Shown piece by piece: positions 248-43,504 of a stretch of DNA of 64,000 bases. The translations under genes and the position numbers were made by a program. This stretch comes from Planctomycetota bacterium (GTDB taxonomy: Bacteria > Planctomycetota > UBA8742 > UBA2392). The stretch covers positions 1-64,000 of the forward strand of contig JADLFN010000063.1 of the NCBI GenBank assembly GCA_020845475.1, given 5' to 3'. The notes below the pieces were generated by a model that saw nothing but the letters and a program-made list of their open reading frames with translations, ran no database searches and was not told where the DNA came from. Positions within the stretch are counted from its first letter, which is position 1. Each line of letters begins with the position of its first letter.

Positions 248-1477
248 ATGGCCGGAACCGACGTTGACCGCAAATCAATCGAAGCCACAGGGCAGGATGT
301 CCTGACGCGTACCATTTCCGTGAACTTTGGCCCGCAGCACCCGGCCACCCACGGCACGCTGCGCGTCAAGATGGAGCTGCTGGGCGAGAATATCGTCAAG
401 GTGGATCCCGAGATCGGCTTCCTCCATACCGGCTTCGAGAAACTGGGCGAGTACCACACGTTCAACCAGTGGGTCTGCACCACCGACCGCATGAACTACA
501 TGAGCCCGCTGTGCAACAACATCGGGTTCGTGACCGCCGTCGAAGAACTGCTCAAGATCGAGCTGCCTCCGCGCGGCCAGTACCTCCGCGTAATCCTCGC
601 TGAGCTTTCGCGCATCGCCGATCACGTTGTTTGCTGCGCCTTGCAGGCCATGGACCTGGGCGCATTCTCCGTAATGCTATGGGGTTTCATCGAGCGCGAA
701 AAACTCTACGACCTGTTCGAGATGGTCACGGGCGCGCGACTGACCACCAGTTACACGCGCGTGGGCGGCATGATGCGCGATGTGCCCGGCGAGTTCGTGC
801 CGCGCTGCCGCAAGTTCATCCGCGAGTTCCCCGAGGCGCTCAAGGAAATCGAGAAGATGCTCTCGCGCAACCGCATCTTCCTTGATCGCACGATTGGCGT
901 AGCCGCGATTGGCAAAGACGACGCCATCAGCTACGGCCTGACTGGCCCGCTCTTGCGCGCCACCGGCGTGGAGTACGACATCCGCCGCGCGCGGCCCTAT
1001 CTGGTTTACCCGGAACTCGATTTCAAGGTCATCACGCGCAGCGAGGGTGACGTGTTCGCGCGCTTCTGCGTGCGCATGGACGAAATGCGCGAGTCTTTGA
1101 AGATCATTTCCCAGGCGCTGGACAGACTGCCCGGCGGCGAAATCAACATTGACGACAAGAAAACCGTGCTGCCCGAGAAAGCCGCGGTTTACACCGAGAT
1201 GGAGGCGCTGATCGTGCACTTCAAGCAGGTGATGAAGGGCCACGGCCTCAAGACGCCCGTCGATGGAAAGATTTATTCCTGCACCGAAAGCCCCAATGGC
1301 GAACTGGGCTGGTACATCGAAACGGACGGCTCGGCCGTGGCTTACCGCCTGCGCTGCCGCCCGCCGAGCTACATCAATTACGGCGCGTTTCCCCAGATGG
1401 TCAAGGGCAACTACATCGCCGACTGCGTGGCCTGCCTCAGCTCGCTCAACATCATCGCGGGTGAGCTGGATCGTTAG
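248..1477 (+). CDS. nuoD: NADH-quinone oxidoreductase subunit D
   Basis: 409 aa; FGPQHPATHGTLR near N-terminus, GFLHTGFEK, C-terminal GELDR typical of NuoD/49-kDa subunit. Confidence 0.97.
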   Translation: MAGTDVDRKSIEATGQDVLTRTISVNFGPQHPATHGTLRVKMELLGENIVKVDPEIGFLHTGFEKLGEYHTFNQWVCTTDRMNYMSPLCNNIGFVTAVEELLKIELPPRGQYLRVILAELSRIADHVVCCALQAMDLGAFSVMLWGFIEREKLYDLFEMVTGARLTTSYTRVGGMMRDVPGEFVPRCRKFIREFPEALKEIEKMLSRNRIFLDRTIGVAAIGKDDAISYGLTGPLLRATGVEYDIRRARPYLVYPELDFKVITRSEGDVFARFCVRMDEMRESLKIISQALDRLPGGEINIDDKKTVLPEKAAVYTEMEALIVHFKQVMKGHGLKTPVDGKIYSCTESPNGELGWYIETDGSAVAYRLRCRPPSYINYGAFPQMVKGNYIADCVACLSSLNIIAGELDR

Positions 1478-1513
1478 TCGTTCTTCGTGATTCGTTCGCC
1501 GTTCATCGGGAAA
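1472..1513. repeat. Heptamer array H1: CGTTAGT CGTTCTT CGTGATT CGTTCGC CGTTCAT CGGGAAA
   Basis: Six consecutive 7-bp units in register read directly from sequence; begins in the last codon of nuoD. Confidence 0.8.
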
Positions 1514-1519
1514 TTGATC

Positions 1520-1890
1520 GTGTATGACTTGAACGATCTGGTTGCCTGGAAGGTTGCAATGGACTTGGCGAACGCCGTTTACGACGCAACGCAGTCTTGG
1601 CCATCAGAGGACGATTCGGGTTGACCTCACAAGTCAGGCGGGCGGCAGTCTCTGTTGCAAGCAACATCGCGGAAGGAAAGGGCCGCAATTCATCGGGAGA
1701 ATTCGTTCACTTCCTTGGAATGGCGTATGGCTCGTTGATGGAGGTGCACACCCAGATTATCCTCGCAGCGCGCAGGAAGTACCTCAGCGCGGACTCGGAA
1801 CGGGAGGTTTTGGAGCTAGTGGCGCGAACGGGCCAGTTGATAAATGCCTTGAAGAAGTCCCTGAAAAGCAAGGCCCAGCCCACACAGTGA
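1520..1890 (+). pseudogene. Four-helix-bundle protein (S23 / 23S rRNA-IVS / Avd-like family), apparently frameshifted
   Basis: GTG 1520 frame reads VYDLNDLVAWKVAMDLANAVYDATQSWPSEDDSG-stop; adjacent frame (ORF 1597..1890) continues GLTSQVRRAAVSVASNIAEGKGR, the family signature; one missing base near 1612-1615 would restore PSEDRFGLTSQ. Confidence 0.75.
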
Positions 1891-1910
1891 GAATTGGCGA
1901 ACACCCGGAG

Positions 1911-1945
1911 CGGTGAACGAACAACGACGAACGGTGAACGAAACC
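1911..1945. repeat. Heptamer array H2: CGGTGAA CGAACAA CGACGAA CGGTGAA CGAAACC
   Basis: Five 7-bp units in register, inverted relative to H1 (reverse complement gives CGTTCAC CGTTCGT CGTTGTT CGTTCAC); ends 1 bp before nuoE ATG. Confidence 0.8.
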
Positions 1946-1946
1946 C

Positions 1947-2453
1947 ATGCCCAAGCAACTCAAGCCTGAAACTGTTGAAGCCATCAAGACCATGGCCGCG
2001 CGCTATCCCAAGCCCGATGGCGCTCTGCTCAACGCGCTGCGCCTGGCCGAGCGCGAGTTTGGCTTCATTGACGCCGACGCCTGCGAGGCCGTGGCCAATG
2101 CGCTGGGCATGTCGCCGGCGCACGTCTGGGGCGTGTCGAGTTTTTACACCACGTTCCGCAAGGAAACCGACGGCAAGTATCTGCTTTACGTCTGCTCCAC
2201 CCTGCCCTGCGCCATGCGCGGCTCTGAAAAACTCTTCGATTACCTGAGCGCAAAACTGGGCGTCAAGAAGGATGAAACCACGCCCGACAAGCTCTTCACG
2301 CTCAAGAAAGTGGAATGCCTCGCCGCCTGCGGCACCGCACCCTGCATGCAGGTCAACGAGGACTACTACGAGAGCCTGACGCCCGAACTCGCCGACCAGA
2401 TCATCGAAGACCTGCGCGCCGGCATCAATCCCGCTCGTCACGTCACCAGGTAG
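1947..2453 (+). CDS. nuoE: NADH-quinone oxidoreductase subunit E (2Fe-2S thioredoxin-like)
   Basis: 168 aa; HVWGVSSFYTTF, VCSTLPCAMRG and VECLAACGTAPCMQVN cysteine pattern. Confidence 0.95.
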   Translation: MPKQLKPETVEAIKTMAARYPKPDGALLNALRLAEREFGFIDADACEAVANALGMSPAHVWGVSSFYTTFRKETDGKYLLYVCSTLPCAMRGSEKLFDYLSAKLGVKKDETTPDKLFTLKKVECLAACGTAPCMQVNEDYYESLTPELADQIIEDLRAGINPARHVTR

Positions 2454-2455
2454 GC

Positions 2456-5400
2456 TCAACCCTGCACGAGCGTGACTTCGCTGGCGGTCAATTTGCCGGC
2501 CTCAAACACCACCGGCACTGAAATCTCCGCGAAGCCCGAAAGCTTGATTTTCACCAGCGTCACCTCCGGCGCCAGGTATTGCGCGGCTACGGTAGCCTTC
2601 GCGTACACCGGCGGCGTGCCGAAGCTCTCGAAGAGGTTGCTCTCCACGGGCACCTGTTTTCCGTTCGCGTCCCAGTAAGTAATGGTGGCGCTGTTGCATT
2701 GATCCTGCGTGACGTCGGTGTTCGTGAATGTCACGCGCAGTTCCGGTGCCGCGGTCAGCTCAAGCTCGATTGTCGTGGTCTTGCCGACTTCGATCGTCAC
2801 GTTCGCCACCGACTTGGCCAGGTAGCCCATGGCGCGCACGGTGGCCGTGTAAGTGCCCGCGGCAATCGTGGGCAGCACCTTCTCCGAGCCTTCGCTGATA
2901 CCCATGAACGTTTCGTTAGGCTCGCCCAAGGGCACGTCGCGGCCCGCGCTATCGGTCAGCGCCGGCAGCGCAAAGCCAAATCCCTGACGGATCGCCTTGC
3001 CCAGCAGTTTCGTAATCTTGATCTTGAGCTGCCCGCTGGTCTTGCCAATACTCAGATCAACGCTCACATCACCCTCGGTGACAGTGATTTCCTTGCTGGT
3101 CGAACCCACGCCCGCCAGAGAAACCGTGAGCAGGTAAGTGCCCGTGGCGATATTTTCAAACGTGAATTGCCCGTCCGGGTCGCACTCGGCGTCGCCGCGC
3201 ATCCAGAATGAGTTTTCCGAGCTGGTGGCGGGCGAGATCACGGCCTTGACTTGCGCGCGCTCGGCGGGCGTGTTGGCCGGCGTCTGCACCACGCCGCTGA
3301 TGTTGTAGCCCCGGAAGTCCCGCGAGAACGGCGCATCGCCCTCCTGTGTGATCTCGACCTGCGCTGTGGCAGGCACCGATTCCTGGCTTTGGCGCGCGTG
3401 CAACTCGTATTTGCCCGGCACCAGCGCCCGGAACTCATATTCGCCGTTCTTTACCGGCGCCTGTTTGATCACATTCTTGAGCGGGCCCACGCCCACGATC
3501 ATCACCGTTGTGAATATCTCGTTTCGGCCATTCATCGATAGCCTGCCAAACAGCCGCGCGCCGCTTTGCGGCTTCATTTCCAGCGTGAAGCGCGTTGTCT
3601 CTCCGCCCTTCACCTGCACCGCGCGGCGTTTGACCACATCGGTATCCAGCTCGATTTCGTCGCGGCTGGTGCGCACCGTGTATCCGCCCTCCGCCACCTC
3701 CTTGAAAACCGCCACGCCGTTTTCACCGCTGGTGGCGTTCAGGCCGCTCACCGGCATGAAGCCGCGCCAGAGTGTGAGCGTGATGTTGGCCGCGGGCTTG
3801 CCGTCCTCGAGCACGGTGACCTCCAGCGAGCCCTTGGCGGCGATGGTGATTTCGACGTTATCCACGCGCGCGCCATCGCTTACCACGATGTCATCCTTGA
3901 TGCCCTGTCCGCCTTTGCCGTCGCGCGCCGAAACGAGATAGGTGCCGGGTGCGAGGTGCGCGAATTCAAACTGGCCGCGCTCGTTGCTCTTGGCCGTGAT
4001 CTCCCTGCCTGCCCAGCCGCCGAATCCATCAACCTGGCCGGTGAGCTTGTAGATCTGGTGGGCGGTCGTGCCGTGCATCATGAACAGGATGTCCGCGCCG
4101 GCGACCGCCTGGCCGCCTGACTCGGTCACCACACCGCTCAACGTGCCGCCGACCAGCAACACCAGTTCAACTTCGTGGGGCTCGGCCTTGATCTCGAACT
4201 TGTAGGTCAGCGGCGCAAACCCCTCAACTTCGACGCTGAGTTGCCAGCGGCCTTCGCTCAGCCCGGAATGCGTAAAGCGGCCTTCGCTGTCGGTGGTTGT
4301 GGCCCCTTTTTCGTTGGGAAATCCGCCTGAAAATGGCCCGGCTTCCTTGAGTTCGGCCAGCTTGACCTCCACGCCGGCCTTGGGTTTGCGGGTGTTGTCC
4401 ACGACCCGGCCCGTCACGGCCACGCCCGGGCCGAGCAGAATGTCGCCCACGTCGGCGTTCTGGCCGGCGGTCACGGTGACTTCGACCGTGGACTTCGCGT
4501 AGTCTTTTGCCTCCGCAAAAACGTGCCAGGTACCGGGCTCAACGCCTTCAACTACGAAAGTGCCGTCATCGTTGATCACGCCCGAGCGCTGCGGGCCGCC
4601 CACGCGATTGGCGACTTTGCGCTCGGCGGAAACGGCGGCCTTGACCGGCTTTTTCGTTTGCCCGTCGAGCACGCGGCCCTTGATGTTCACAGTCTGGTTG
4701 AGCGGGATTTCTCCCAGGTCCTTTTCGCCGCCGGCCGTGAGATCGGCGTAGCGGCGCGTGTTCCAGTAGTCCTGCAACGAATAGCCGACCGCGCCCACGG
4801 TCACGCCATAGCGCGCCTCGGGCAGGTCGTTCACGGCAAAATAACCCTGCGCGTCCGTCACGAGACGGCGCGGCTCAATGTAGCCGGTGCGATCCTGGCG
4901 TTCCGTGTAATGAAATTCGACCCAGGCGTTGGCGATGCCGTTGCGCGTGACGCCGTCAACCACGCGGCCGCGCACGGCGGCAGGGTGCGCCAGGATCAGC
5001 GCTACGCTTTCGGTGTCGCCCGCGGACATGCCAAGCTGTTGCGAATGGGCCGGCGCATATCCGGGTTCCGTGGCGACAATGAAAAAGGAAGCCAGATACC
5101 CAGGCTCAACCGGCTTGTCGCTTTCCCCGCGGTCGCCGTCGCGGCCGGATTTGTTGAGTTCCTGGCCATTGGAGCCAGTCACCGTCAGTTTGAGCGTGAA
5201 CTTGCCCTCGCCATCAGTGACCGTGCTGCCGCGCGGGTTGGCCCTGGGGCGCTCGCGCATGGATTTGGCCCACTCACTGTCTCCCCAGCGCGCATAGAGA
5301 TCCTCGTCGCTGCTGGCCGCGCTGATGTTTACGCCGACGGCCGGGCGGTTGTCGTATTTGTAGTGAACGGTACCGGTGACGGTGACCTCAATTTCTTTGG

Positions 5401-5713
5401 TCTTCCATGTCGCTTTGGGTGTGTCCGGCTTGGGCGTATCGGGCTTTGGCGTATCGGGCCTGGGCGTGTCGGGCTTGGGCGTGTCCGGCTTTGGCGTGTC
5501 GGGCTTTGGCGTATCGGGCTTTGGCGTATCGGGCTTGGGCGTGTTGCCCACGTTGACCTTGGGCGATTCCTCCGTGTTGTCGGGCGTGTCCGCAACCTGG
5601 TTGCCATGACGGCGCGGCTCTGGATCGGTGTTCAGCAACATGTATCCGCCGCCGACGAGGCCAAGCAGCAGGACAAGCACAAGCAACAGAATGACAAGCG
5701 TACCGTTTTTCAT
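2456..5713 (-). CDS. Membrane-anchored protein with repeated carboxypeptidase-regulatory-like (Ig/CNA-B-type) domains and a TPKPD linker
   Basis: 1085 aa; N-terminal hydrophobic helix, (TPKPD)n, multiple V.G.V....G.PV..A.V....G.F....L..G.Y repeats. Confidence 0.85.
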   Translation of the reverse strand: MKNGTLVILLLVLVLLLGLVGGGYMLLNTDPEPRRHGNQVADTPDNTEESPKVNVGNTPKPDTPKPDTPKPDTPKPDTPKPDTPRPDTPKPDTPKPDTPKATWKTKEIEVTVTGTVHYKYDNRPAVGVNISAASSDEDLYARWGDSEWAKSMRERPRANPRGSTVTDGEGKFTLKLTVTGSNGQELNKSGRDGDRGESDKPVEPGYLASFFIVATEPGYAPAHSQQLGMSAGDTESVALILAHPAAVRGRVVDGVTRNGIANAWVEFHYTERQDRTGYIEPRRLVTDAQGYFAVNDLPEARYGVTVGAVGYSLQDYWNTRRYADLTAGGEKDLGEIPLNQTVNIKGRVLDGQTKKPVKAAVSAERKVANRVGGPQRSGVINDDGTFVVEGVEPGTWHVFAEAKDYAKSTVEVTVTAGQNADVGDILLGPGVAVTGRVVDNTRKPKAGVEVKLAELKEAGPFSGGFPNEKGATTTDSEGRFTHSGLSEGRWQLSVEVEGFAPLTYKFEIKAEPHEVELVLLVGGTLSGVVTESGGQAVAGADILFMMHGTTAHQIYKLTGQVDGFGGWAGREITAKSNERGQFEFAHLAPGTYLVSARDGKGGQGIKDDIVVSDGARVDNVEITIAAKGSLEVTVLEDGKPAANITLTLWRGFMPVSGLNATSGENGVAVFKEVAEGGYTVRTSRDEIELDTDVVKRRAVQVKGGETTRFTLEMKPQSGARLFGRLSMNGRNEIFTTVMIVGVGPLKNVIKQAPVKNGEYEFRALVPGKYELHARQSQESVPATAQVEITQEGDAPFSRDFRGYNISGVVQTPANTPAERAQVKAVISPATSSENSFWMRGDAECDPDGQFTFENIATGTYLLTVSLAGVGSTSKEITVTEGDVSVDLSIGKTSGQLKIKITKLLGKAIRQGFGFALPALTDSAGRDVPLGEPNETFMGISEGSEKVLPTIAAGTYTATVRAMGYLAKSVANVTIEVGKTTTIELELTAAPELRVTFTNTDVTQDQCNSATITYWDANGKQVPVESNLFESFGTPPVYAKATVAAQYLAPEVTLVKIKLSGFAEISVPVVFEAGKLTASEVTLVQG
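5411..5545. repeat. 15-bp tandem repeat encoding (KPDTP)n
   Basis: Recurring ggctt(t/g)ggcgt(g/a)tc(g/c) units; protein TPKPDTPKPDTPKPD. Confidence 0.9.
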
Positions 5714-34077: not shown

Positions 34078-34096
34078 GGGCGCGGTCAGTTTACGT

Positions 34097-34138
34097 CGGG
34101 AATCGGTCGTCGGTAGTCGGTCATCGGGATTCAGTCAC
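34097..34138. repeat. Heptamer array H3: CGGGAAT CGGTCGT CGGTAGT CGGTCAT CGGGATT CAGTCAC
   Basis: Six 7-bp units in register in the kinase/moaA intergenic region. Confidence 0.75.
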
Positions 34139-34203
34139 TGTGAGCCGGGCGCAGGCGGAAACGGGCTACCGACGCCCGACCCTCGCGCTACAATCGTTCC
34201 ACG

Positions 34204-40847: not shown

Positions 40848-40885
40848 TCGAACCGGGCCCGCCGTGGCATGGAGAGAAGCAATGG

Positions 40886-40920
40886 CCAATAACCAATAAC
40901 CAATTTCCAATTACCAATGA
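40886..40920. repeat. Heptamer array H4: CCAATAA CCAATAA CCAATTT CCAATTA CCAATGA
   Basis: Five perfect 7-bp periods read directly. Confidence 0.9.
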
Positions 40921-40945
40921 ACTTTCGCAACAGGCGGCCTTTCAC

Positions 40946-40980
40946 TGGTCATTGAACATGGGTTATTGGGCATTTGGATT
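40946..40980. repeat. Heptamer array H5 (inverted): TGGTCAT TGAACAT GGGTTAT TGGGCAT TTGGATT
   Basis: Five 7-bp units; GGTTATTGG is the reverse complement of CCAATAACC in H4. Confidence 0.75.
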
Positions 40981-43504
40981 AGCGCCCACGCAGCTTGGGA
41001 TTGAAAGCTTCACGCAAGCCTTCACCCAGCAGGTTGAAGGCCAACACGGTAATCAGGATGGCCACACCGGGAATCCATGTGAGCCAGTTCGCATCGTTGA
41101 TGTACTGGCGTCCTTCAGAGAGGATGGAGCCCCACGTCGGCTGGTCTGGCGTCGCGCCGATGCCCAGGAACGAGAGCGTGCTTTCCAGCAGAATCGCGCT
41201 GGCCACGCCAAGGGTCGCGCTGACCAGCACGGGCGAAATCGCGTTTGGCACCAGGTGACGCCATACAATACGGAAGTCAGAGACGCCCAAGGCACGCGCG
41301 GCCTGAACGAAATCCTGCTCGCGCAACGAGAGAATCTCGGCGCGCACAAAGCGTGTTGTGCCCATCCAGCCGGTGAGGCCCAGTACCGCCATGACGATGT
41401 ACACGTCTTTGGCGAACATGGCCAAAATGGCGATGATCAAAACCAGCGTGGGGATGGTCAACATGACTTCGGTGAAACGCATAACGAGGTCATCGACGCT
41501 AAGTGTGGGCAGGAACAGTTTTCGCAACGGAGCAGGACAACTATCCGCGGAGCGCTGTGCTGCGACGGCCAGAAGCAGTGTCGTGATAATGCCAATGATC
41601 GAGAGCAGCACCGGCGTCATGAAGTGCCGCAATTTGGCGTAAAGCGGGTAGCGTTCCCAACCACTGAGCAGCTCGGCCTTGATCAGGGCATCACGGTTGT
41701 TTTTCGTGAGGGTTGCGTACTTCGTGTGGTACTCGCCACGCAACGCGGCGCGTCGCTCGAGCAACGCGTTGCTTCCCTGCAGCAGCGATGGCGCCGCCTT
41801 GACCGCCTTGTTCTGGGCGTCACGAAGATTGAACCAGGGAATGATACGCGGCTCATTGGTTTCAGAGTTCAATGGCAGCTTGTTGACGTCGTGCTCGACG
41901 ATGCCGGCGAGGATTCCCTGCGCCTCTTTAATGGCGCCGGTTCTGGGCCCGCCAATCTGCGCGTTCAGGCGCTTTGCCTGCGTTTCTGAGGCCTTGGCGC
42001 GCTCTGTGAGCTGCTTGGCCTCTTCAGCCTTTCCGCCATCCTGGAGCTGCTTGGCCTGCGTGTTCAAATCGGCGGCGAACTTTTCCTCAAATGCCTTTTG
42101 AAGCTCGGCATCAAGCTTGTCCAACTCGGCCAATGATACTCCCATGCCGGCAACCGCTTCGCGGGCGGGTTGCAGCACTTTGAGCAACTCGGCTTCGTTG
42201 ACTCCGCCCTTTTCGGCTGCCTGGGAAATCTTCTGTGCAGCTTCGTCCAGGCTCTTGTCAATGGAAGCGAGCTTCTCGTCCAGTCCCTTCTGGGTGTCCT
42301 TCAACATCGCATTGCGCTTCTCGGCGCCCTGGCGCAGCGCCAATGCCAGATCCTTGCGATCCTTGGACTCAAGCATCGTGGCGCGTTCCAACTCCTCGTC
42401 CCCGAGACGCTGTGCGGTTTCACGGTCGAGGCGGAACTTGAGCGCACGATACTTCAAGTGCTCCAGTTCCAGCTCCAGCATTGCGATTTCAAAGGCGTGC
42501 TGGGTGGTCAGACGTTGTTCCGCCGAAGGCGCGCCCGCTTCACCGTTTTCAATCAGCTTGACGTCGGCGCCGAAGTCCCTGGAGAGGATCAACGCATCGT
42601 AGGCCTTTGACTCGATCAGCGACGCCTGGTTCAAAAGCCGGCCTTCGGGTGTGGATGACGCAATATGCCCCGTGTAAAGAAACACGCCCAGCGTCACGAG
42701 TGCAAAGCCGCCAAACCAGGCGACTGCCGCAAAGCGCCGACCCATGAGCGCAACGGCAATCTGCAACGCGACCGCTATTGCGCACGCCACGACTGAGGGA
42801 AGAATCAGCGCGTAAAGGTCGATGGCCCAGGAAACTACACCCACTAATCCCGACATGAGCATGATCAGGAACGGCAATCCTACACGCGAGCGACCGAAGT
42901 ATCCCGCGATTCCACCCAGCGAAATACCAATCAGGACAGAGATTCCCACGACCAGCAAACCGACGGTAAGCGAAATAGAAGAACCAGCCCAAAGTCGGGC
43001 CAGCACGTCACGCCCGAGGTGATCCGTTCCCAGCCAATAGGTGCGCTTCGTGTCGGCGCCGATACCTTCGCGCCGCCGCTCGGCAATTTCCGCGTCCGTC
43101 AGCTTTCGCAACTTGTCCTTGGGAACTCCTTCAGCCCGCTGCGCTTCCAGATGAGCGGCCTGTATCGATTCCGCACTGTCCGCTTCGTAACCGCCAAAAG
43201 GCGCAGCCAGGAGCGACAACACGTATGGGCGTTCGAGCTTGTCCTTGAGTTCGGTCTGCAAGGGGTCAATTACCGACCACGCATTGCGATCCATCTTGAC
43301 CTTGTCGCCCAGATCCTCTGCTTCAGCGATGATCTTGGATTCCTCGGGCGTTGGAGGTTTGCCTGTCAGAAACTTTCCTGATAGCGCCGCGATCGAAAGC
43401 AGCAGGATCGCCACAAGCGCGGCTACGGCAGGCCGGTTGCGCAACAATATGCGCAGCGCATCACGAGTGGGAGACGTGCGTTGAGGCGTGGCCGGTTCGC
43501 TCAT
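40979..43504 (-). CDS. Peptide/oligopeptide ABC transporter permease (DppC/OppC-like) with large coiled-coil insertion
   Basis: 841 aa; YWLGTDHLGRDVLARLWAG, EAA-loop region AARALGVSDFRIVWRHLVPNAISPVLV; about 300 aa Lys/Glu/Ala-rich insertion. Confidence 0.92.
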   Translation of the reverse strand: MSEPATPQRTSPTRDALRILLRNRPAVAALVAILLLSIAALSGKFLTGKPPTPEESKIIAEAEDLGDKVKMDRNAWSVIDPLQTELKDKLERPYVLSLLAAPFGGYEADSAESIQAAHLEAQRAEGVPKDKLRKLTDAEIAERRREGIGADTKRTYWLGTDHLGRDVLARLWAGSSISLTVGLLVVGISVLIGISLGGIAGYFGRSRVGLPFLIMLMSGLVGVVSWAIDLYALILPSVVACAIAVALQIAVALMGRRFAAVAWFGGFALVTLGVFLYTGHIASSTPEGRLLNQASLIESKAYDALILSRDFGADVKLIENGEAGAPSAEQRLTTQHAFEIAMLELELEHLKYRALKFRLDRETAQRLGDEELERATMLESKDRKDLALALRQGAEKRNAMLKDTQKGLDEKLASIDKSLDEAAQKISQAAEKGGVNEAELLKVLQPAREAVAGMGVSLAELDKLDAELQKAFEEKFAADLNTQAKQLQDGGKAEEAKQLTERAKASETQAKRLNAQIGGPRTGAIKEAQGILAGIVEHDVNKLPLNSETNEPRIIPWFNLRDAQNKAVKAAPSLLQGSNALLERRAALRGEYHTKYATLTKNNRDALIKAELLSGWERYPLYAKLRHFMTPVLLSIIGIITTLLLAVAAQRSADSCPAPLRKLFLPTLSVDDLVMRFTEVMLTIPTLVLIIAILAMFAKDVYIVMAVLGLTGWMGTTRFVRAEILSLREQDFVQAARALGVSDFRIVWRHLVPNAISPVLVSATLGVASAILLESTLSFLGIGATPDQPTWGSILSEGRQYINDANWLTWIPGVAILITVLAFNLLGEGLREAFNPKLRGR

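Follow-up and report, generated by a model that had tools for sequence, protein, structure and literature searches.

Among the described systems closest to the element reported here is the intervening sequence (IVS) of 23S rRNA genes. The IVS of Coxiella is 428-444 nt long, contains an S23p open reading frame (ORF) preceded by three or four tandem heptamers GACAGAT, is closed by a 28-bp terminal stem and is cut by RNase III (PMC4990558). The GGGAATC repeats of Xanthomonas form ~70 (70-75) convergent pairs per genome, with four units preferred, overlap with stop codons and no function assigned (PMC4692102). The 'global regulator binding sites' of Geobacter metallireducens consist of five tandem heptanucleotides, mostly in inverted pairs (PMC2700814), and TAACTGA repeats have been described in Beggiatoaceae (PMC4679880). 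Among the open-licence papers found (preprints excluded), none joins these repeats together or to the protein family PF05635. Here we describe a 475-bp insert (1472-1945) that separates the respiration genes nuoD and nuoE in a 64,000-nucleotide stretch from a Planctomycetota bacterium (contig JADLFN010000063.1, positions 1 to 64,000; hereafter the window). It consists of a PF05635 gene placed between two inverted arrays of heptamers.

An earlier note on this DNA had listed six 7-bp units to the left of the gene and five inverted units to its right, and had noted that the left array begins in the last nuoD codon and that the right array ends 1 bp before the nuoE ATG. We found the units exactly as listed (Table 1). 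The first left-arm heptamer takes in the end of nuoD, its last codon plus the stop (CGT TAG, 1472-1477), and 1 bp separates the end of the right arm from the nuoE ATG (1947). Three tandem copies of CGTTNNT, with up to three mismatches allowed, matched 8 times in the 64 kb, and 7 of the matches were inside the two arms (1.1 matches expected; 0/100 shuffles). The only ORF inside the element had been regarded as a gene for an S23/bIVP-type four-helix bundle, and profile matches agreed with this. With its frames joined by one X, the protein matched PF05635 with an E-value of 2e-33 and 115 bits (curated cut-off 33.8) and TIGR02436 with a score of 113.6 (cut-off 24), and the downstream frame by itself still matched PF05635 (E=3.9e-25, 88.6 bits, against the same cut-off). 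A frameshift had been overlooked: the reading from GTG 1520 hits TGA at 1622-1624, and the remaining two thirds of the gene are open in the frame of 1597-1890. The window element is probably a decayed copy of a small mobile element with the order arm, S23/IVP gene, inverted arm. An Rfam scan of the window identified only a tRNA.

The arrangement is not confined to this locus. The window genome contains nine PF05635 genes, all nine with inverted heptamer arms and each with a different unit (GGGTCTT, AAATTCA, GGTCAGA, TTCGTGC and CGTTCNN are examples). We collected 80 PF05635 loci from 16 genomes (the family set, whose counts include orthologous copies unless collapsed) together with flanks of 350 bp, and measured 7-bp periodicity as a lag-7 self-match score; the thresholds for detecting arrays were set by ourselves. 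The median score of the flanks was 13 upstream and 15.5 downstream, compared with 4 in 615 control segments taken from these genomes. Lags of 4, 5, 8, 10, 11 and 13 were flat in the family flanks, at 4-5. This enrichment, which had been set beforehand as the check on the proposal, excludes chance above all other comparisons. Arrays were present on both flanks at 69 of the 80 loci. Within an element, the unit consensus sequences of the two arms matched at a mean of 6.36 of 7 positions, compared with 3.74 (sd 0.11) for shuffled partners and 3.7 across different elements, and the order of variant units also agreed between arms (0.827 vs 0.792 order-shuffled, P=3e-8). The proposal that gene and arrays form one genetic unit is supported by this enrichment. 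The accompanying suggestion that this unit generates repeats finds no support, as arms are stably inherited between species.

Table 1. Features of the window. Positions count from the first nucleotide of the window.
Feature	Position	Strand	Evidence
nuoD, host gene 5' of insert	248..1477	+	409-aa ORF; nuoE homologues, junctions compared in relatives
Left arm, CGTTAGT CGTTCTT CGTGATT CGTTCGC CGTTCAT CGGGAAA	1472..1513	+	letters; lag-7 score 11 at 1471-1504; 6/7 unit match to right arm
S23/IVP four-helix-bundle gene (PF05635/TIGR02436), frameshifted	1520..1890	+	ORF listing, profile matches
Right arm, inverted, CGGTGAA CGAACAA CGACGAA CGGTGAA CGAAACC	1911..1945	-	letters; lag-7 score 10; pairs with left arm in RNA fold
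nuoE, host gene 3' of insert	1947..2453	+	168-aa ORF; homologues in 15 relatives
Gene-less inverted pair, unit CCAATAA, short spacer	40880..40983 (left 40880-40918; right ~40942-40983)		lag-7 score 22, partner 21/28
Gene-less array TCGGTCR (34096-34127), weak inverted partner ~34160-34190	34096..34190		lag-7 score 13, partner 19/28

The elements also share their dimensions and their placement. Arm length shows a sharp peak at 30-33 bp (n=120, median 31), corresponding to about five repeats of a short core spaced 7 bp apart, and the median length of whole elements is 480 bp (5-95%: 442-558). Although some arrays are expanded, this peak differs from the free, slippage-driven length of simple sequence repeats (SSRs). 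In 54 of 66 elements, a stop codon that ends a co-directional open frame lies at most 15 nt from the start of the left arm (9% at random positions). Both neighbours are co-directional in 56 of 72, a count that depends on a crude ORF caller, by which the window locus itself was misassigned. Read from outside to inside, arms are G-rich and C-poor, with a GC skew of 0.41 in the family and 0.47 elsewhere, and 87-89% of arms are positive. Strongly expanded heptamer arrays were seen at loci L332, L187, L143 and L388, where slippage does act on the arms.

Similar arrays accompany PF05635 genes across bacteria. In 80 pan-bacterial loci, gathered with a single conserved peptide pattern and a cut on best hits, lag-7 arrays with a score of at least 12 were present in 71%, and the corresponding values for lags 5, 10, 11 and 13 were 0-1%. 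The set covers Gamma-, Beta- and Deltaproteobacteria, Firmicutes, Bacteroidota, Acidobacteriota, Spirochaetota, Verrucomicrobiota, Hydrogenedentota and Planctomycetota; in a combined set of 131 loci the proportion was 76%. About one in ten loci uses an arm unit of 8 bp instead of 7 bp (in Prevotellaceae, Aquimarina, Kapaibacterium and others), and octamer-armed loci include L145, L156, L165, L169, L185, L190, L192 and L206. We considered unit length as a property of protein clades and found this unsupported, since octamers are scattered over the tree rather than gathered in one clade. Of 151 genomes from the window's phylum, 82 harbour a PF05635 gene, with up to 25 different copies per genome. 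One IVP query gave no match in phage genomes. At L382 (1762-3861, minus strand), a PF05635 domain forms an in-frame C-terminal fusion to a 699-aa protein whose N-terminal part is unrelated.

Comparisons between relatives point to insertion. At the nuoD-nuoE junction, six relatives lacking the gene also lack the array, with a stop-to-start gap of 7-9 bp and lag-7 scores of 1-3. The only other relative with an insert there, genome G002, carries a different element with the unit TCGGGAA. An array present at this junction regardless of the gene was the second refuting condition of the earlier note, and the proposal passes this check as well. Heptamer remnants that we had seen by eye at the junction of the congeners G014 and G015 were withdrawn, as lag-7 scoring gave nothing. 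Elements of G008 likewise have empty orthologous sites in G003-G007, including gcvPA|gcvPB. Outside the family, the architecture recurs on cyanobacterial plasmids. Plasmid C of Trichormus variabilis and pCC7120beta are 98% identical apart from an element, and GTAAT stands on both sides of this element and once in the empty site. In the type III-B CRISPR operon of Picosynechococcus, an element is present between cmr2 and cmr3 in PCC 7003 (L393 1380-1900) and absent in PCC 7002 (L395). The earlier claim that neither neighbouring gene is disrupted therefore holds for nuoD and nuoE and fails here, where the insert stands in place of the final part of cas10, the upstream gene. Two copies in G026 are 88% identical over 444 bp, end in the arms, have unrelated flanks and each directly follow a TGA; they form a dispersed unit bounded by terminal inverted repeats (TIRs), as transposons do. 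The empty sites, the different elements at the same junction and the two 88%-identical copies with unrelated flanks support the view that the elements are mobile. We also observed elements directly 3' of ISL3-family transposase genes on Nostoc plasmids (L290-L292), possibly hitch-hiking on the insertion sequence (IS).

The heptamers are related to the proteins that they flank. With orthologous sites collapsed, which left 34 elements, the similarity of units was correlated with protein identity (Mantel r=0.36, P<=0.0002), with a unit match of 3.4 below 25% protein identity and 5.4 above 65%. As units track protein relatedness, they are inherited with the protein and not remade from each target. 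A copying of the unit from the insertion site had been among our candidates and was rejected, since units follow protein relatedness and orthologous copies inherit them. Among orthologous copies at fixed sites, the ratio of nonsynonymous to synonymous substitution (dN/dS) was 0.02-0.14 in nine of the ten computable pairs and 0.31 in the tenth. Judging from these ratios, the protein is under strong purifying selection after insertion, that is, needed there. The arms are retained at least as well as the spacers (0.85 vs 0.81 in the full alignment); an ungapped comparison had suggested that arms are far more conserved than the rest of the element, which the full alignment reduced to this weak claim.

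Arm pairs also occur without a gene. In 400 kb of G008, we found 34 lag-7 arrays and 11 inverted pairs, of which 10 were gene-less with spacers of 15-53 bp, and no lag-7 array was found in the 200 kb scanned of G017, a PF05635-free relative. Seven of the 10 gene-less units are identical to a gene-bearing unit of G008, compared with 0-5 of 10 for other genomes. The CCAATAA pair of the window belongs to the same unit class as the gene-bearing CAATGAC/AATTACC elements of relatives. Two loci, L322 in G007 and L331 in G006, are in-place gene-less derivatives of elements of G008 that retain both arms. Elsewhere in the window, a 1085-aa protein (2456-5713, minus strand) contains a P-K-P-D-T repeat region encoded by a 15-bp tandem repeat at 5415-5542.

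On balance, we favour the reading that the window insert is a copy of a class of ~480-bp mobile elements, the mRNA-operon form of the 23S rRNA IVS. The unit architecture, the element-specific heptamer shared by the arms, the precise presence or absence at stop/start junctions within operons, the dispersed copies bounded by arms, the tracking of protein relatedness by the heptamers and the purifying selection on the protein are direct observations. As for a mechanism, the only solved close relative of the protein, XCC0516 (2GSC), is a homopentamer whose subunits are four-helix bundles (PMC4990558, citing Lin et al. 2006). The S23 protein would recognise the repeated unit of its own arms of about five cores, perhaps with one protomer per core, and protein and heptamer would consequently change together. 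That a pentameric protein is encoded beside arrays with roughly five copies of a co-evolving unit suggests direct recognition of the arms, as DNA or RNA. Gene-less arm pairs would be ends recognised in trans, and the element would spread by using its arms as ends, with the cutting and joining enzyme supplied from outside, by the host or another element. IVSs such as that of Coxiella would be elements of the same kind that landed in rRNA rather than mRNA.

Several points weigh against this reading. Neither binding nor movement was observed; binding and the moving enzyme are inferred. A clean target-site duplication was found at one site only (GTAAT); another clean site has no duplication, and a third site lost target bases. 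Recent dispersal was not seen inside the window's own family, where the best non-orthologous protein identity was 0.83. The interiors of gene-less pairs are not alike, only the arms being common, and these pairs may be in-place remnants rather than moved copies, as several of them are. Octamer arms require 7 changes on the protein tree, compared with 7.7 when shuffled. The link to 23S rRNA IVSs draws on a single paper (PMC4990558). Finally, the very low dN/dS goes beyond what a purely selfish element needs, and a host role for the S23 protein, or a host dependence on it, is likely.

Among the alternatives, an element acting at the RNA level survives best, and we regard it as unlikely rather than implausible. 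Here the operon transcript would contain a ~30-bp hairpin formed by the arms, RNase III would excise it, and S23 would bind or protect the RNA. The stem and RNase III excision of the Coxiella IVS provide a precedent (PMC4990558), both the minimum free energy (MFE) and the centroid fold of the window element pair the two arms, and elements lie mostly in sense orientation inside operons, according to the caller mentioned above. On the other hand, the whole-element fold was no more stable than shuffles (z -1.1), and differences between arms of the G:U-compatible type were not in excess over those of the A:C type (64:54 and 75:77). Without such an excess, RNA pairing does not look like a selected property, and we rejected it as one.

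A host regulatory module, in which S23 is a conserved DNA- or RNA-binding regulator and the arrays, beside the gene or gene-less, are its operators, is in our view improbable. It would account for the low dN/dS and for arms retained between species, for gene-less arrays that bear the resident unit, and for the annotation of similar arrays in Geobacter as predicted global regulator binding sites (PMC2700814). The arrays, however, lie at stop codons inside operons instead of in promoters, vary in presence and unit among close relatives at one junction, and belong to up to 25 different copies per genome.

Even less probable is a retroelement moved by a reverse transcriptase (RT) acting in trans, as the relationship to Avd, the accessory protein of diversity-generating retroelements (DGRs), would predict (weak profile matches; PMC10053308). 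One RT is present in almost all genomes of the family, irrespective of whether they contain 1 or 15 elements, the ~480-bp elements include no RT gene, and the sole PF05635 gene beside a group II intron-type RT (L066) lacks heptamer arms. RT-driven movement was rejected, as RT presence is not linked to element number. The RT in question has ~490 aa (for example G000:C15:42022-42741) and occurs at least once in 15 of the 16 family genomes, mostly as one copy each. At L066, the 3' part of the PF05635-like gene encodes a short repeated peptide, TSTSTST, from an apparent ~6-bp repeat.

Ordinary microsatellites, built by polymerase slippage in short intergenic gaps with an incidental gene link, may be dismissed: some arrays are clearly slippage-expanded (L187, L143, L332) and array number varies in Coxiella (PMC4990558), but the arms are inverted and matched, with a length close to 31 bp on either side of the gene, arms and gene are missing together from empty sites, the 200 kb of the PF05635-free relative have no lag-7 array, and an equal heptamer density around random small genes is already contradicted by the control segments.

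Returning to the mobile element, the pattern gives PF05635, a widespread bacterial family without known function, a concrete partner, its own heptamer. Gene-neighbourhood methods will wrongly tie PF05635 to the operon in which it landed. PF05635 proteins have been listed as CRISPR-linked (PMC10910872) and DGR-linked (PMC10053308), and the cmr2|cmr3 element is a source of such false guilt by association. If the protein reads its own heptamer, natural protein-heptamer pairs would be a ready-made specificity code. The class also offers one explanation for repeats that were reported separately and never accounted for, the heptamers of the Coxiella IVS, the GGGAATC repeats of Xanthomonas and Nostoc and the five-heptamer sites of Geobacter. 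We propose tentatively, and consider possible more than probable, a general class of bacterial mobile elements whose homopentameric S23 protein would read the heptamers of the inverted arms as a five-fold code and co-evolve with that code into many mutually distinct specificities. This class would underlie the rRNA IVSs and the orphan repeats of Xanthomonas, Nostoc and Geobacter, perhaps also the TAACTGA repeats of Beggiatoaceae; hosts would retain it as genes of the operon become dependent on protein and arms together.

How the elements compare with known systems can be stated as follows. With MITEs and REP/BIME elements they share the form of short inverted-repeat elements dispersed in intergenic gaps. 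They differ in arms that are 7-bp-periodic and vary in sequence from copy to copy, and in a protein that is neither a transposase nor a TnpA-REP. Neither a transposase nor an element-wide conserved TIR, the marks of IS and MITEs, was found; S23/IVP is the sole ORF and the arms differ between elements. The DGR accessory protein Avd (NF033474, bAvd) has the same fold and superfamily by weak profile matches, with a score of 15.9 for the window protein against a cut-off of 80, but the window element has no RT, template or variable repeat and its neighbours are nuoD and nuoE. The sites of Geobacter metallireducens resemble the arms in being multicopy, in having five heptamers and in forming mostly inverted pairs, whereas they were read as operators with no gene link drawn (PMC2700814); we predict that they belong to this class. 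The GGGAATC/GGGGATT repeats of Xanthomonas and Nostoc share about four units, convergent inverted pairs, stop-codon overlap and the polarity of the G-rich strand, and differ in having been described as G-quadruplex SSRs without a linked protein (PMC4692102). We predict that the Xanthomonas repeats are linked to XCC0516, a PF05635 protein; no close relative of it turned up in two genome searches, which included no X. campestris. The closest likeness is to the 23S rRNA IVSs of Coxiella and Leptospira, which have a sense S23 ORF, complementary termini and a similar length (428-444 nt vs ~480 bp); in that of Coxiella, tandem heptamers also precede the ORF (PMC4990558). The window element has the sense S23 ORF and the complementary termini (unit match 6/7, arms paired in folds). 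Instead of a 23S rRNA gene, it occupies the gap between nuoD and nuoE, and no rRNA motif was found near the PF05635 loci collected. The elements lie within operons between protein-coding genes, each genome may have many of them, and each has its own heptamer in both arms, which was not described for IVSs. The orphan heptamers of Xanthomonas, Nostoc, Geobacter and Coxiella look like one kind with these elements.
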